In this document: piece by piece, positions 52,099-59,563 of the stretch
How the letters are laid out: the number at the start of each line of letters is the position of its first letter
Numbering within the stretch: the first letter of the stretch is position 1
Assembly: GCF_947259025.1 (NCBI RefSeq)
Contig: NZ_CAMYKO010000004.1
Coordinates: forward strand, 124,001 to 188,000
Length of the DNA stretch: 64,000 nt
Direction of reading: 5' to 3'
DNA from: an uncultured Methylophaga sp.
GTDB lineage: Bacteria > Pseudomonadota > Gammaproteobacteria > Nitrosococcales > Methylophagaceae
Position numbers and translations under genes: made by a program
Notes under the pieces: generated by a model
The model's database searches: none
What the model saw: only the letters and a program-made list of their open reading frames with translations
What the model was told of the DNA's origin: nothing

Positions 52099-53457
52099 AT
52101 GACTAGCAGATCCGAGCGCGCACTCGTATACATGGGGAATGGCAACGTCCCCGACGATCTGTGGGATGAATTCCAGTCAAATGACTGGTATGTGCAAAAG
52201 GCACAGACCGTTGAGGATGTTAAGCAGTCCGTTATTGATCACGATCCCAAGGTCGGGCTGGTAGAACTATCCTGTCAACAATCAGAGTCGTGTCTTCAGG
52301 CAATAGAAGATATGCTCAGACAGCATGCCAGAATCGAGTGGATAGCGCTGGTACAGACAGAGTCATCTTTGCCTCCCAGGCTAAGACAAATCATTGCTGA
52401 TTCCTTTATAGATTTTCATACCTTACCGGTTGATACCAGTCATCTGCTGGCCAACATTGGCCATGCTTATGGTATGGCGCGAATGAAATGGGACAATGTC
52501 CAGTTTCCAGATGAAGTCGAGACACTGGAAAAGGAGATGGTCGGCAGCAGTCAGCAGATCCGTAACCTGTTTTCCAAAATCCGCAAGGTCGCCGGTGTCT
52601 CTGCCCCCGTATTGGTCACTGGTGAAAGTGGTACCGGCAAGGAACTCACTGCCCATGCTATTCATGAACGCTCAAAGTGTGCTGACGGCCCCTTTGTCAC
52701 GGTGAATTGCGGTGCGATACCGACCTCTCTGGTGCAGTCAGAATTGTTTGGTTACGAAAAAGGCGCCTTTACCGGTGCCAACCAACGCAAGATCGGTCAC
52801 TTTGAAGCGGCCGATGGTGGGACTATTTTCCTGGATGAAGTCGGCGATCTGCCGCTGGACCAACAAATCAACCTGCTGCGTTTCCTGCAGGAAGGCACGA
52901 TTCAGCGTGTCGGCGGCAGTCAGCAGATTCCGGTCAATGCCCGTGTCATTGCGGCCACGCATGTGGATCTGGAAAAAGCCGTCAAATCAGGCAAGCTGCG
53001 TGAGGATCTTTTCTACCGCCTGAACGTATTGCAAATACACACTCCGCCGCTACGGGATCGGGTCGGTGATATTGAACTGCTGGCCAATTATTTCTTCCAG
53101 AAGTTCTCACATGAGAAAAGTAATAACGTCAAAGGCTTCTCCCAGTCCTGTCTTTCTGTGATGCGTGACTATCACTGGGAAGGCAATGTAAGGGAACTGG
53201 TCAACCGCATTCGTCATGCCATGGTCATGTGTGAAAACCGCATGATTTCTGCCGAGGATCTGGGCATTGACCAATCCTCTCCCCGCTATCACTTTATGAC
53301 ACTTAAAGAAGCCAAGAACCGGGCCGAACAGGAAGCGATTCTCAACACCCTGGCCCGCCACAATCACAACGTCACTGCTGCTGCCAAAACTTTGGGTGTT
53401 TCCAGAGTCACCCTCTATCGCCTGATAGAAAAGCACGGTATCTCGGTTAATCTCTGA
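52099..53457 (+). CDS. Sigma54-type enhancer-binding transcriptional regulator with VpsR-like N-terminal domain
   Basis: Walker A GESGTGKE, KGAFTGAN, C-terminal Fis-type HTH (NHNVTAAAKTLGVSRVTLYRLIEKHGI); N-terminal domain ends in IGHAYGMARMKWD as in VpsR-like regulators. Confidence 0.88.
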   Translation: MTSRSERALVYMGNGNVPDDLWDEFQSNDWYVQKAQTVEDVKQSVIDHDPKVGLVELSCQQSESCLQAIEDMLRQHARIEWIALVQTESSLPPRLRQIIADSFIDFHTLPVDTSHLLANIGHAYGMARMKWDNVQFPDEVETLEKEMVGSSQQIRNLFSKIRKVAGVSAPVLVTGESGTGKELTAHAIHERSKCADGPFVTVNCGAIPTSLVQSELFGYEKGAFTGANQRKIGHFEAADGGTIFLDEVGDLPLDQQINLLRFLQEGTIQRVGGSQQIPVNARVIAATHVDLEKAVKSGKLREDLFYRLNVLQIHTPPLRDRVGDIELLANYFFQKFSHEKSNNVKGFSQSCLSVMRDYHWEGNVRELVNRIRHAMVMCENRMISAEDLGIDQSSPRYHFMTLKEAKNRAEQEAILNTLARHNHNVTAAAKTLGVSRVTLYRLIEKHGISVNL

Positions 53458-53537: not shown

Positions 53538-53555
53538 TGTAAACAAATTTTTACA
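53538..53555. promoter_or_regulatory. Palindromic UAS candidate 1
   Basis: TGTAAA-CAAATT-TTTACA, perfect 6-bp arms with 6-bp spacer. Confidence 0.65.
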
Positions 53556-53620
53556 CCTCCCCGATCTCATCCCTAAGCTCCCGTCATTCAAAGAATTTCC
53601 TGTTGGTTCCCTGAATCACC

Positions 53621-53638
53621 TGTAACAAAAAGTTTACA
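53621..53638. promoter_or_regulatory. Palindromic UAS candidate 2
   Basis: TGTAAC-AAAAAG-TTTACA, same layout with one mismatch; centre 83 bp from UAS 1. Confidence 0.65.
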
Positions 53639-53705
53639 TACCGGCGTATGTCGCCTTTCCTCAAAAAATAAGTTATCTCTATATTTATCAATGCCTTACA
53701 AGTTG

Positions 53706-53720
53706 TGGCACAGTCCATGA
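53706..53720 (+). promoter_or_regulatory. Candidate sigma54 promoter: perfect -24 (TGGCAC), degenerate -12 (ATGA in place of TTGC)
   Basis: TGGCACAGTCCATGA; about 72 bp downstream of UAS 2 and 45 bp upstream of the first gene. Confidence 0.35.
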
Positions 53721-53762: not shown

Positions 53763-54053
53763 ATGAAAAACAGCCTGACTACATTTGCTATCACTGCGCT
53801 ACTACTGGCCGCTCCGGTCAGTGTGTGGGCTGATGATGCTGATGCATGGCTGCTCCCGGCGACCCTGGAAGTGTCATCGCAACCCTCTCCCAAACTGATC
53901 CACGACACAGATTTATCCACCATGCGAGGCCAGGGCTTCAAAATGCCCGAGTTCGATATTGGGGTGATTCTCTGGGATGAGGTTGATAGCGGTGCCAAAC
54001 CCAAAACCCATCACTCCAGTGGTGATGGCGCTTTCACTGTCACGGTTGAATAA
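53763..54053 (+). CDS. Small exported protein at the head of the fap-like operon; unknown family, LSTMRGQGF motif
   Basis: Signal peptide MKNSLTTFAITALLLAAPVSVWADD; first gene after the candidate promoter. Confidence 0.75.
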   Translation: MKNSLTTFAITALLLAAPVSVWADDADAWLLPATLEVSSQPSPKLIHDTDLSTMRGQGFKMPEFDIGVILWDEVDSGAKPKTHHSSGDGAFTVTVE

Positions 54054-54054
54054 A

Positions 54055-54549
54055 ATGAAATCAAGTAACAATAAAATTTATTCACTGATTGATGCGGCCG
54101 TCATTATTATTTTGCTGGCGATGGCCTCGTCAGTTCAGGCTGATCCCGGCGATATCATTATTCTGCGCGACGTCCCACCACAACGCTGGGATGTGAATCG
54201 TCATACCGGCCAGCCCACTATCATCAATCCATCCCCGGTCAAAGAAACGACAGCCCTCGGCAATACATTGCAGGACATGGGCGTTGATGAACTGACCGAT
54301 CAACAATTTTCCGGTATCACATCCAACGCCGTATCAGGCTCCTCGACGGTTAACAGTAACTTTGCCAACACCGTGACTAACCAATTGGGCAGTCACGGCA
54401 GTGGTAATGGTGTTTCCAGTCAGATGAGCACACTCAACAGTATCACCTCAGGTCTTGGTGGCAGTATTTCCGGCAGTGTCGGCGGTGCCACCAAAAACCT
54501 CGGTAGCGATATCCGTGGTGCGTTATCGGACACTTTTCCAGGTAGATAA
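54055..54549 (+). CDS. Exported protein, positional equivalent of FapA
   Basis: ATG one base after the previous stop; hydrophobic N-terminal signal (AAVIIILLAMASSVQA), Ser/Gly/Asn-rich C-terminus. Confidence 0.65.
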   Translation: MKSSNNKIYSLIDAAVIIILLAMASSVQADPGDIIILRDVPPQRWDVNRHTGQPTIINPSPVKETTALGNTLQDMGVDELTDQQFSGITSNAVSGSSTVNSNFANTVTNQLGSHGSGNGVSSQMSTLNSITSGLGGSISGSVGGATKNLGSDIRGALSDTFPGR

Positions 54550-54551
54550 CT

Positions 54552-55169
54552 ATGAAGCTCTTACCTTTCAGTCTGCTGTTTGCTTCATTGTTGCCATCAT
54601 TGCCGGCGGCGATCGCTGACGATGCATTGACCGGACTGCCTTATGCCATCAACAGCAGCATGATCGACGGTCATGCGCTTAGTGGCAGCAGAGGACGGAA
54701 CGTCGTCAATATGGCGGCGGGTGATGCCAATGCCCAGCAAAATGCGGCGGCCATTGCACTGAGTCCTAATGGCAATGCCAGCATTGGACTCTTCACACAG
54801 CAGAACCTACATCAGAATTCCAGCACAAGCCCGGGCATGTCCATCTCCGGTATTGGTGGTAACGCCTTTACCAACACGATGGGCGCGCTCTCGATTAACC
54901 AGACCAGTGGCACGGGCAATGCCCAGGTCAATGGGATGGCAATCGGGATTGGGCTGGATGTCGACGTCATGTCGGAAAACATGCTTTCCAACATGTCGAC
55001 CGGGGCTGGACTGGCAGCCCGCGAGCCAGACGATGGAACCCGGAGTGCCACTATCGCTGATAGTGCCTTCACCGGTTCACGTGGGCTGGTGCAAGTTAAC
55101 CAGTCAGCCGGGTCGGGCAATAGCACGGCCAACAACTTTGTTCTCCAGATTGAACTGGGAACGAAATAA
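54552..55169 (+). CDS. FapB-like minor amyloid/nucleator candidate with three degenerate repeats
   Basis: Signal peptide; ALSGSRGRNVVNMAAGDANAQQNAAAIALS / AFTNTMGALSINQTSGTGNAQVNGMAIGIG / AFTGSRGLVQVNQSAGSGNSTANNFVLQIELG. Confidence 0.65.
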   Translation: MKLLPFSLLFASLLPSLPAAIADDALTGLPYAINSSMIDGHALSGSRGRNVVNMAAGDANAQQNAAAIALSPNGNASIGLFTQQNLHQNSSTSPGMSISGIGGNAFTNTMGALSINQTSGTGNAQVNGMAIGIGLDVDVMSENMLSNMSTGAGLAAREPDDGTRSATIADSAFTGSRGLVQVNQSAGSGNSTANNFVLQIELGTK

Positions 55170-55191: not shown

Positions 55192-56427
55192 ATGAAATTA
55201 TCAACCAAGTACACACCCATTGCTGTCGCGTTGGCTGCGTTAGCTGCTGGCCCAGCAATGGCCGGTCAACCAGGTCACAGCGGCACACTCGATGTTGGCA
55301 TTCTGGTCGACGCCAAAGTCAATGCCAGAGCTGATCTGGGACTGAGCGTATCGAAATACAAAAACGATACTGAAGTCACAGTCGAAAAAACCTCTGACAC
55401 CGATCGTTACATTGATGTGAAAGGTGATATCGACGTTGACGGAACCATTCCTGTTGGTAGTAGCTCTGCGGCTTTAACTAGTCAGAATCAGAACAACTAC
55501 AAAAACGGAAACGTTTACGATCCTGAAGATCCCGAGAATGCAGCTCTTGTTGCGAGCGACACACCTAACGATGGCGACTTTCTTGTCGACAATAAAGCTG
55601 AGTCCGTTGAAAACGGTCTGCAAGGAGCCAGCGGTAATATCGGCCTGAATATCTCAGCAGGGCAAAACAACGCACAGGACAACAGTGCTGCCTTATCAAA
55701 AGTGGATGCCGAGTTTGTGTTTGCTGCTGCAGACTCTATCTCCAACCAGAACGCTGAACGTAATCAATACGTTTACAAAGGTAATCAGTTTGATGCCACT
55801 CTGGGCGGAAACACACTACGTGATGCCAGCGGTAATATCGCTGTAAACATTGCAGCCGGTAACAGTAACCTGCAAGCCAACTCCCTGGCTGCCTCTGTTA
55901 ACACCAGTGGCACTATGGCTGAAGCGACCGTTTCCAGCCAGCAAACACAGGATCATAACTTCACTTCACAACAAGGTATGCTGGAAAAAGTATACGACAC
56001 AGTGAATGTGACTATGGTCGGTGGCATGGTTGGTGGCTATCAAGGTACCTCTGACCAGATTGGCGATCTGTATGCTGACTCCTGGACTGGTGATACTCAT
56101 CCAGATGGCACACAAACCGGTCATATTGACTTCGACAGTGAAGCCCAGGGCGCTGTAGATCTCAATGATGACGGTGGTGCATTTGCATTCAATGAAGAAG
56201 GCACAATTGGTCTGCTCGGCGTATTCAGTGGCCAAGTGGTAACCGCACGCTGGATTGACCGTCCACATCAAAACAATGCCACTCTGAGTGGTAATGCACT
56301 GCGCGGCGCCAGCGGTAATATCGGTGTCAACATCACTGCTGGTACTAACAACCTGCAAGGTAACCACCTGTCAATCGCAGCAGCGACTGGTGGCCCAGCA
56401 GGCGGTGGTGGTGGTGGCGAACAATAA
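55192..56427 (+). CDS. FapC-like functional amyloid subunit, three imperfect repeats with unequal linkers
   Basis: AGGAG RBS, signal peptide, repeats ASGNIGLNISAGQNNAQDN / ASGNIAVNIAAGNSNLQAN / ASGNIGVNITAGTNNLQGN (codon starts 55627, 55825, 56308). Confidence 0.8.
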   Translation: MKLSTKYTPIAVALAALAAGPAMAGQPGHSGTLDVGILVDAKVNARADLGLSVSKYKNDTEVTVEKTSDTDRYIDVKGDIDVDGTIPVGSSSAALTSQNQNNYKNGNVYDPEDPENAALVASDTPNDGDFLVDNKAESVENGLQGASGNIGLNISAGQNNAQDNSAALSKVDAEFVFAAADSISNQNAERNQYVYKGNQFDATLGGNTLRDASGNIAVNIAAGNSNLQANSLAASVNTSGTMAEATVSSQQTQDHNFTSQQGMLEKVYDTVNVTMVGGMVGGYQGTSDQIGDLYADSWTGDTHPDGTQTGHIDFDSEAQGAVDLNDDGGAFAFNEEGTIGLLGVFSGQVVTARWIDRPHQNNATLSGNALRGASGNIGVNITAGTNNLQGNHLSIAAATGGPAGGGGGGEQ

Positions 56428-56516: not shown

Positions 56517-57218
56517 ATGAAATTCACCAAAACCACACTGCTGCTTCTCACCACATCCAGCCTCTGGCTGTCGATGTCAATAAGCAGTGCGGCCAATATG
56601 CAATTTGGTGGTGTCGTCCCCGGCACCATGATTACTAAGAACATCATCAGTATGCGCGAGCGGCACTTTATCGATATGGTGCCTCAGCAGACTGATTTCA
56701 GTTGCGGGGCAGCGGCCCTGGCGACCATTCTCAACTATGCCTATGGCTATGATTTTACAGAAGCCGATGTCATCGCCGGCATGCTCAAGGTCAGCAACCC
56801 GGAACTGGTACAAACCAAGGGGTTTTCACTGCTGGATATTAAACATTATGTGGAAACCCTGGGATTGCGAGGCAGGGGTTATACCGTGAACCCGGAAATC
56901 CTTGACCGCATCAAAATCCCCACCATTGTTTTGCTTGATATACGTGGCTACAAACATTTCGTCGTCCTCAAAAAGGCGACGCCCGAAAAGGTATATATCG
57001 CTGATCCGGCTCTGGGCAACAGAGTCATGGACAGGCAAGACTTCGTAGATGGCTGGAACAAAGTCACTTTTGCCGTTATCGGCAATGGCTTTGATCGTGA
57101 AACCATTCTGTTACGTCCCAAACAACCGCTGACAGCCAGAAATACGGTAGACACCTGGAGACCGCTAACAGATGCCGAGTTGGTTGAGTACGGATTCTAT
57201 CGTTCCGAACTGTTCTGA
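56517..57218 (+). CDS. C39-family cysteine peptidase, FapD-like
   Basis: Signal peptide; QQTDFSCGAAALATILNYAYGYDFTEADVI, GYKHFVVLKKA, YIADPALGNRVM (Cys/His/Asp). Confidence 0.85.
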   Translation: MKFTKTTLLLLTTSSLWLSMSISSAANMQFGGVVPGTMITKNIISMRERHFIDMVPQQTDFSCGAAALATILNYAYGYDFTEADVIAGMLKVSNPELVQTKGFSLLDIKHYVETLGLRGRGYTVNPEILDRIKIPTIVLLDIRGYKHFVVLKKATPEKVYIADPALGNRVMDRQDFVDGWNKVTFAVIGNGFDRETILLRPKQPLTARNTVDTWRPLTDAELVEYGFYRSELF

Positions 57219-57282: not shown

Positions 57283-58149
57283 ATGAAAACTAAAACAGTC
57301 ACGCGCGGCAGGGAAAACCGCTCGTCAACAGACAAAGGAGGTCGCGCTGTCAGCAAGCTGTTGAAGCCCCGCATTGTAGCGGCTTCAGCCTTGTTATTCT
57401 GTCTTTCCCCGGTTCATTATGCACACGCTGAATTGCCTGAAATGAGCGTTTTTGCCAATGCTCAGGAGTTATCAGACGATGTGCTGGGTGAGACGCGGGG
57501 TAAATTTGTTTCTGCCGGAGAAATCATGACCTTCGGCGTAAAAATGGTAACGGAATGGGTCACCTCAACAGGTGAAGTCATTAATGCCAGCGGGACGCTG
57601 GCTGTGAACATGGGGACGGGGCAACCCACTGTCCGTTTTGAACCGCTGATCAGCGTCCATCAGGGTCAGCCAGTCAACCAAGTCGCTTCATCGGGCAATA
57701 ATATCGTCAATAGCGGGCAGGGCCTGGAAAACGTGTCCGGTGTCGTACAGACCATACAGGTTGCCGGTAATACCAACGGCATTGGTAACACCATTGGTGT
57801 GTCTGTCAGACGCTATCAACAGGACAACAATACGCCTGCTGGAAATACTGCTTCCAACCTGAATGTGACAACACCGTCCGGTAACACAGCTGGCGTGGCT
57901 TTAGCCAATAATGGCTTATCGGTGAACGTCAATGTGCTCAACCAGGGTCAGGCACAGCAGGCAATTCGCAGCGTTTCCCAGGGTAATGGGCAGGTGCTGC
58001 AATCCGTTCGTCTGGGCGGTGATCTGAACCAGATCCGCAACATGATCAATCTGGATATTCAAACCCGTAACCGTGCGGTGTCATCAACTGCCAATACGCA
58101 AAATCTGGTGTCGTCATTACGGCAGTTGTCGCAGAGCACACCTTTTTAG
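57283..58149 (+). CDS. FapE-like exported protein with degenerate amyloid-type repeats
   Basis: Internal start MKTKTVTRGREN; long basic n-region then signal; ELSDDVLGETRGKFVSAGEIMTFGVKMVTEW; repeats GLENVSGVVQTIQVAGNTNGIGN etc. Confidence 0.7.
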   Translation: MKTKTVTRGRENRSSTDKGGRAVSKLLKPRIVAASALLFCLSPVHYAHAELPEMSVFANAQELSDDVLGETRGKFVSAGEIMTFGVKMVTEWVTSTGEVINASGTLAVNMGTGQPTVRFEPLISVHQGQPVNQVASSGNNIVNSGQGLENVSGVVQTIQVAGNTNGIGNTIGVSVRRYQQDNNTPAGNTASNLNVTTPSGNTAGVALANNGLSVNVNVLNQGQAQQAIRSVSQGNGQVLQSVRLGGDLNQIRNMINLDIQTRNRAVSSTANTQNLVSSLRQLSQSTPF

Positions 58150-58276
58150 GGAACTCAACATATAAAGGATTAAAAGGCTGATGAATGTGATTGAGTCTTC
58201 ACAAAAATTTGACATCAATAAACCCGTGTTTAATACTCCAATTAAACGGGGTTGTCTCATTAGCCGAGGACTTGAA

Positions 58277-59563
58277 ATGCATTCAATATCATTTCGTTAC
58301 ACTACCCTGAGCTTCTGTATCGGTCTGGCCCTGGCCACACCGGTACAGGCTGCTTCAGACCCGGAAGTCGAAGCGCTGCAACAACAAGTTAAGGAAATGC
58401 AGCAACGCTATGAGCAGCAAAATGCGGTGCTCAAGGCGATGGCGGTCAAGATACAAAAACTTGAGCAGGAATCGCAGCCCCGTAATGTCAAAGTCGGCGG
58501 CGCCCAGCCTCAACCCAACACCTCTGCTGAGCAGGGAGAACCGGGCGGCACAACACCAGCCAATACCCAACAGGCCCAGAACGGCGAAGAAGTAGTTAAA
58601 GAAGCCCCCGCCTCACGTAGTGCGGAAGCGGTCTATCGTGAGCAGCACGCCCTCTTTGACCGCAAGTTCACCATTGAACCCGGCATTACCTATTCACATT
58701 CAGACCGTCGCGATCTGTTCCTCAATGGTTTTTTGGCACTGGATGCTATATTCCTGGGTAATATCAGTCTGGATCGAGTCAAAGCCGATACCTGGACCTT
58801 TGATTTAACCGGTCGCTACAGCTACAGCGATCGGCTGCAATTTGATGTCAATGTCCCCTACCTCTACCGTGACTCATCGTTCAATACCTCTGGTGCTGGA
58901 TTTGCCACCGATCAGCTTGCCGAAGGCGATGTGTCTAATGGTGATTTTGGTGATGTCAGCTTTGGTGCCTTCTATCGACTGTTTCAAGAACAGGGCGCCC
59001 GACCTGACACCGTGCTGAGCCTGCGGGTCAAGACACCAACAGGTAAGGACCCCTATGGCATCAAATTTGTAGAAGTGGCAGACAGTGGTGGTAATCTCAC
59101 CCTGCCGACCGAGTTGCCGACCGGTAATGGTGTCTGGTCAGTGACGCCGGGCATCAGCGTGATAAAAACCACCGACCCCGCGATTCTGTTCGCCAACTTC
59201 TCTTATACCTATAACTTTGAAGAGTCATTTAGTGATATCAGCACTGATGTCGATACCCGCACCAGCGCTGATGTCGACCTGGGTGATAGCTTTGCATTCG
59301 GCGCCGGTTTTGCTTTTGCCCTCAACGAAAGGTTGAGTGCCAGTATGTCGTACTCTCATCGCATCACACGTGAGACCACTATCAAACAAAGTGGCCAGTC
59401 TGAGCAAAGCATTAACGGCAGCGATGCCAGTGCTGGCCTGCTCAACTTCGGTATCAGTTACAGCCTGGGTGATAACCTGACTATGACCGGTAATGTGGGC
59501 ATTGGTATTACCCCGGATGCCCCGGATGTCACGGTCGGCTTCCGTTTCCCGTATAACTTCTGA
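58277..59563 (+). CDS. FapF-like outer-membrane beta-barrel with N-terminal coiled coil
   Basis: Signal peptide, VEALQQQVKEMQQRYEQQNAVLKAMAVKIQKLEQE coiled coil, low-complexity linker, barrel KFTIEPGITYSHSDRRDLFLNGFLALDAIFLGNISLD ... VTVGFRFPYNF. Confidence 0.8.
   Translation: MHSISFRYTTLSFCIGLALATPVQAASDPEVEALQQQVKEMQQRYEQQNAVLKAMAVKIQKLEQESQPRNVKVGGAQPQPNTSAEQGEPGGTTPANTQQAQNGEEVVKEAPASRSAEAVYREQHALFDRKFTIEPGITYSHSDRRDLFLNGFLALDAIFLGNISLDRVKADTWTFDLTGRYSYSDRLQFDVNVPYLYRDSSFNTSGAGFATDQLAEGDVSNGDFGDVSFGAFYRLFQEQGARPDTVLSLRVKTPTGKDPYGIKFVEVADSGGNLTLPTELPTGNGVWSVTPGISVIKTTDPAILFANFSYTYNFEESFSDISTDVDTRTSADVDLGDSFAFGAGFAFALNERLSASMSYSHRITRETTIKQSGQSEQSINGSDASAGLLNFGISYSLGDNLTMTGNVGIGITPDAPDVTVGFRFPYNF

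Follow-up and report, generated by a model that had tools for sequence, protein, structure and literature searches.

Predicted BrfA-like control of a fap functional amyloid operon in Methylophaga through paired palindromes and a sigma54-like promoter

Genes of the locus

Within the 64-kb window (the whole stretch of DNA analyzed), a regulator gene is followed by an intergenic region with two palindromes and by an operon that is predicted by homology to be fapABCDEF, encoding amyloid fibres for biofilm. All of these genes lie on the + strand. The first gene of the operon encodes a small secreted leader protein of 96 aa (53763..54053) that has no family match; its LSxxxxRGxxF-like motif is kept in Methylophaga thiooxydans (40% identity), and the protein may be a further component of the Fap system. 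Homologues of fapA to fapF follow in order: a FapA-like chaperone (54058..54549; NF058617, E = 1.6e-10), a FapB-like amyloid subunit (54552..55169; NF058557, E = 6e-31), a FapC-like major amyloid subunit (55192..56427; NF058558, E = 6.5e-47), a FapD-like C39 peptidase (56517..57218; NF058616, E = 2.5e-88), a FapE-like subunit with an uncertain start (57283..58149; NF058559, E = 1.8e-33), and a FapF-like outer-membrane transporter (58181..59563; NF058560, E = 1.5e-149). Because each of these scores is below the respective NCBI equivalog cut-off, the proteins are called homologues here and not strict equivalogs; the FapD-like protein also matches PF03412, above cut-off. The N terminus of FapE contains a motif (LSDDVLGETRGKF) that the LS...RGxxF motif of the leader resembles.

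The regulator gene (52099..53457, + strand) encodes a BrfA-like, VpsR-domain protein of 452 aa, which is the proposed activator of the operon. The initial annotation had taken the product for an enhancer-binding protein, and its Pfam domains bear this out: VpsR (PF20161), AAA+ (PF00158), AAA lid (PF25601), and a Fis-type helix-turn-helix (PF02954) all score above cut-off, and the GAFTGA motif is intact. The protein is 73% identical to the M. thiooxydans orthologue adjoining fap and 45-51% identical to the regulators adjoining fapF in Pseudomonas. A VpsR domain, an AAA+ domain with GAFTGA, and a Fis-type helix-turn-helix in a neighbour of the fap operon are the features of a BrfA-type regulator. 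Control of fapA-F by BrfA and RpoN in Pseudomonas fluorescens is reportedly the subject of Guo et al. 2024 (Microbiol Res 287:127864). In P. fluorescens PF07, BrfA is the regulator beside fapF, fap transcription drops in brfA and rpoN mutants, and a -24/-12 promoter of fapA was mapped by 5' RACE (PMC9207406); BrfA of P. fluorescens senses c-di-GMP directly and regulates fapA directly (PMC13101488). By analogy, we infer that the Methylophaga regulator may work like BrfA. The c-di-GMP-binding arginines of FleQ are not evident in the 52099-53457 protein, which counts against the analogy.

Paired palindromes and the fap promoter

The region between the regulator gene and the leader gene contains two 18-bp palindromes, UAS1 (TGTAAACAAATTTTTACA, that is, TGTAAA-N6-TTTACA; 53538..53555) and UAS2 (TGTAACAAAAAGTTTACA, that is, TGTAAC-N6-TTTACA with 5 of 6 arm pairs matching; 53621..53638), followed by a TGGCAC element (53706..53711, +) that represents the -24 element of a presumed sigma54 promoter. 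A check of the sequence located both palindromes and TGGCAC where the initial annotation had put them. The centres of UAS1 and UAS2 are 83 bp apart, and 85 bp separate the start of UAS2 from that of TGGCAC. With GG taken as -25/-24, the presumed transcription start is at ~53732, and the centres of UAS1 and UAS2 fall near -185 and -102, in agreement with the -184 and -101 counted previously. The description of the spacing as close to eight helical turns holds roughly, given that 80-83 bp correspond to 7.6-7.9 turns at 10.5 bp.

The 2.70-Mb genome contains 3 matches to the strict motif TGTAAM-N6-TTTACA, 2 of which are UAS1 and UAS2, and none to the reversed control pattern. Random scatter of the motif over the genome, which had been named in advance as the result that would speak against a regulatory role, was thus searched for and not found. 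When one mismatch is allowed, there are 18 sites genome-wide; chance would give ~0.011 pairs of sites lying within 100 bp of each other, and 2 such pairs are seen, namely, UAS1/UAS2 and a pair elsewhere in the genome (C3:3877/3900). Within the window, a single further palindrome exceeds the threshold, and it is weaker than either UAS. Short palindromes are common in AT-rich DNA such as this region, and UAS1 and UAS2 might be functionless products of chance; however, the strict motif is rare and the clustering of pairs is far above expectation, so the two sites are not attributed to chance. Identity to M. thiooxydans, where UAS1 and UAS2 are kept as TGTAACGAAAACGGTACA and TGTATCTAAAAGTTTACA, is 28/36 in the two sites versus 113/254 in the remaining intergenic region, and the geometry is common across genera (see below), which makes a chance origin very improbable.

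The arms raise another alternative, because TGTAAA-N6-TTTACA is the exact consensus of the Escherichia coli TyrR box (PMC4374768), and the palindromes could serve a TyrR-type regulator encoded elsewhere in the genome. The TyrR model yields no protein above its cut-off in either this genome or that of M. thiooxydans (best, 273 versus 576 bits), and hence the resemblance to the TyrR box is confined to the arms. The target genes and the spacing logic differ from those of TyrR: the sites adjoin amyloid and adhesin genes, and the same layout is found in Pseudomonas promoters with arms that are not TyrR-like. Membership in a TyrR regulon was therefore rejected as very improbable.

The promoter itself combines a conserved -24 element with a degenerate -12 element. 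GG is present within TGGCA, which is kept in M. thiooxydans. The -12 position (53717..53720, +) reads ATGA, with the G kept and the C lost, and M. thiooxydans has CTGT; GA and GT thus take the place of the GC that is kept in Pseudomonas and in a sister genus of Methylophaga. The -12 element had been judged poor in the initial annotation, rightly so, as 53717-53720 offers no GC, and because of this lack the promoter is named sigma54-like rather than canonical. RpoN (sigma54) is encoded in the genome. A perfect IHF-consensus site, TATCAATGCCTTA (WATCAANNNNTTR; 53686..53698, +), lies between UAS2 and the -24 element, where 0.0046 perfect matches per 73 bp are expected by chance, and both IHF alpha and IHF beta are encoded in the genome. 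The IHF site of M. thiooxydans (TATCAACAAGTTA) is also perfect, and its distance to TGGCA is equal within 1 bp. In Pseudomonas, 47 of 73 gaps between UAS2 and -24 contain an IHF-like site (≤1 mismatch) versus ~6 in shuffles, a count inflated by common ancestry, with 37 of the 47 sites sharing one position. The IHF site is accordingly predicted, from the sequence, to complete the layout of UAS1, UAS2, and -24.

The sigma factor, which the initial annotation left open, can be approached by comparison with VpsR of Vibrio cholerae. The two regulators share an N-terminal VpsR domain, the architecture of an enhancer-binding protein, and control of biofilm matrix (here predicted), and V. cholerae VpsR acts independently of RpoN (PMC5552954). 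Given this and the poor -12 element, RNA polymerase with sigma70 could instead transcribe the operon under the same activator and sites, in the manner of VpsR; a hexamer such as TATATT (53680-53685) would then serve as the -10, and TGGCAC would be incidental. M. thiooxydans has TATAAT, and both hexamers lie between UAS2 and TGGCA. However, GAFTGA is intact here, whereas the VpsR alignment ends just before that motif, and a -24 element lies downstream of the sites. Furthermore, the -10-like hexamers of the two species lie at distances from UAS2 that differ by 6 bp, whereas TGGCA stays in place (85 and 82 bp), so the spacing gives TATATT no support as a -10 and it is not favoured. TGGCA also matches the -24 position of Pseudomonas, and fap of P. 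fluorescens needs RpoN (PMC9207406). Sigma70 control is considered improbable on these grounds, and sigma54 is favoured at the fap promoter. An RpoN-dependent c-di-GMP enhancer-binding protein for biofilm matrix, BerB, is described in Burkholderia cenocepacia (PMC5552954); BerB acts on berA and through berA on the bep exopolysaccharide, whereas the operon here is fap.

The spacing in Methylophagaceae and Pseudomonas

Among the genomes that share this arrangement, that of M. thiooxydans DMS010 is the closest, and its fap promoter reads UAS1-81 bp-UAS2-82 bp-TGGCA (TGGCAT). In the sister genus of the same family (G033:C43, locus L035, 1819-2812), a regulator with 53% identity adjoins a lattice of 83/82 bp that ends in TGGCATGATCGCTGCT, with GC at -12. 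The genes 3' of that lattice are not fap; they form an Hsp20/P-type ATPase region, the first clear gene encoding a small heat-shock protein. In two other Methylophaga, with regulators of 43-44% identity, the palindromes read TGTTTC-N6-GAAACA, and a canonical -24/-12 is present directly 3' of the regulator gene; one of them (G005) has two scored sites, which are 100 bp apart, the second being 93 bp before -24. Outside the family, the closest homologues that do not adjoin fap (G037-G040, ~50% identity) have no palindromic sites of this type beside them, which counts against a general link of regulator and sites.

To compare more distant genera, 80 fap loci were gathered, and the 73 of Pseudomonas type were scanned with no spacing imposed when finding sites, because choosing the best site within preset spacing ranges is biased. 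The 73 upstream regions contain 146 palindromes versus 0-2 in shuffles. A full lattice, with a pair of sites 79-84 bp apart and a -24/-12 another 79-85 bp on, is present in 50 of the 73 promoters and in none of 20 shuffles of these regions; as the loci are related, the 50 lattices are not 50 independent events. Adjacent sites are most often 80-82 bp apart, and spacings of 73-75 bp form a second class where a third site is present. Distances from palindrome to -24/-12 peak at 80-82 and 160-163 bp, and C/TGGCAC occurs at 80-83 bp. In most of the Pseudomonas loci, a regulator homologue lies convergent beside fapF. A spacing common to M. thiooxydans and 50 of the 73 Pseudomonas promoters thus supports the reading of the two palindromes, together with the -24 element, as an enhancer pair for the activator encoded next to them.

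Comparison of the sequences supports the assignment of the Methylophaga locus to the known BrfA-RpoN-fap control system. As in P. fluorescens PF07, a VpsR-domain enhancer-binding protein is encoded beside fap and the promoter is predicted to be of the -24/-12 type; as in the Pseudomonas fap promoters, where the spacing is ~81 bp, the palindromes are paired. The spacing typical of BrfA-type loci (~81/~81 bp, a value derived in this analysis and not from the literature) is matched by 83 and 85 bp. The regulator gene is upstream and co-directional here, whereas it is downstream and convergent in Pseudomonas; the -12 element is degenerate, and a leader gene is added. The arms also differ, being TGTAAM here and mostly TGTTAA/TGTCTC ... 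GATACA/GAAACA in Pseudomonas, and because of this difference, identical DNA recognition across the genera can only be presumed.

An adhesin promoter and the proposed mechanism

Outside the fap locus, the strict motif is present just once in the genome. A second palindrome follows it at 23 bp (C3:3877/3900), and this pair is ~130 bp upstream of a gene for a retention-module protein, after which a LapA-type, type I-secreted adhesin of ~2600 residues is encoded. No -24/-12 follows the pair at lattice distance, and a sigma70-like TATAAA is nearby. No palindromes were found upstream of the relatives of the adhesin in other Methylophaga, so the adhesin is known as a target from this genome alone. 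The two locations suggest, on the evidence of the motif, that the amyloid and the adhesin may form a shared matrix regulon, and the adhesin site perhaps represents a second mode of action of the activator. In the same stretch (L042, 3877-3947), the palindrome pair is directly followed by TTGTACCAAGGTACAA, a third inverted repeat with perfect arms, and by TATAAA.

From the sites, their spacing and conservation, the gene identities, and the presence of RpoN and IHF, all read from the sequence, we infer that a BrfA-like activator on both palindromes, together with IHF and sigma54 at TGGCAC, very probably drives the leader gene and fapA-F. The 52099-53457 protein would bind both 18-bp palindromes as dimers, with IHF bending the stretch that separates UAS2 from the promoter. 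Oligomerization of the activator would follow, probably in response to c-di-GMP, and its GAFTGA loop and ATPase would open the complex of sigma54-RNA polymerase held at TGGCAC, switching on the leader gene and fapA-F from the presumed start. The same activator would probably bind C3:3877/3900 before the giant adhesin gene, placing both in one matrix regulon.

The BrfA-RpoN-amyloid switch would thereby extend from Pseudomonas to methylotrophic bacteria. The layout offers a DNA code, an 18-bp palindrome of approximately TGTWWM-N6-KWWACA repeated at ~81 bp with a -24 element another ~81 bp on, from which matrix regulons might be predicted from sequence, for example, the adhesin site. That the spacing is so strict in distant genera points to a looped complex of defined form and not to enhancers with loose placement. 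Relative to the literature accessible here, two points appear to be new: the lattice, with its strict spacing and wide conservation, and the connection with the adhesin. A more speculative idea, to which we assign a rather low probability, is that VpsR-domain activators of this type impose a fixed lattice of two or three 18-bp palindromes and a -24 element ~81 bp apart, kept from Methylophagaceae to Pseudomonas through changes of the arms and even of the operon controlled. The activator studied here would in addition act free of -24/-12 at the adhesin promoter, with its sites 23 bp apart, and would thus have two modes.

Several other fap loci show additional arrangements. A third palindrome is located 73 bp upstream of UAS1 in several Pseudomonas fap promoters, that of P. 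putida included (L107, L125, L140, L143, and L146, among others). Four Polaromonas fap loci (L077, L078, L079, and L081) have no nearby BrfA-like gene and no palindromes; the FapD of Polaromonas is close to that of Methylophaga (64-69%). Finally, a Bryobacterales (Acidobacteriota) metagenome-assembled genome (L080) contains a fap-like operon with a divergent partial regulator gene; a single palindrome precedes TGGCATAGGTGTTGCT by 82 bp.
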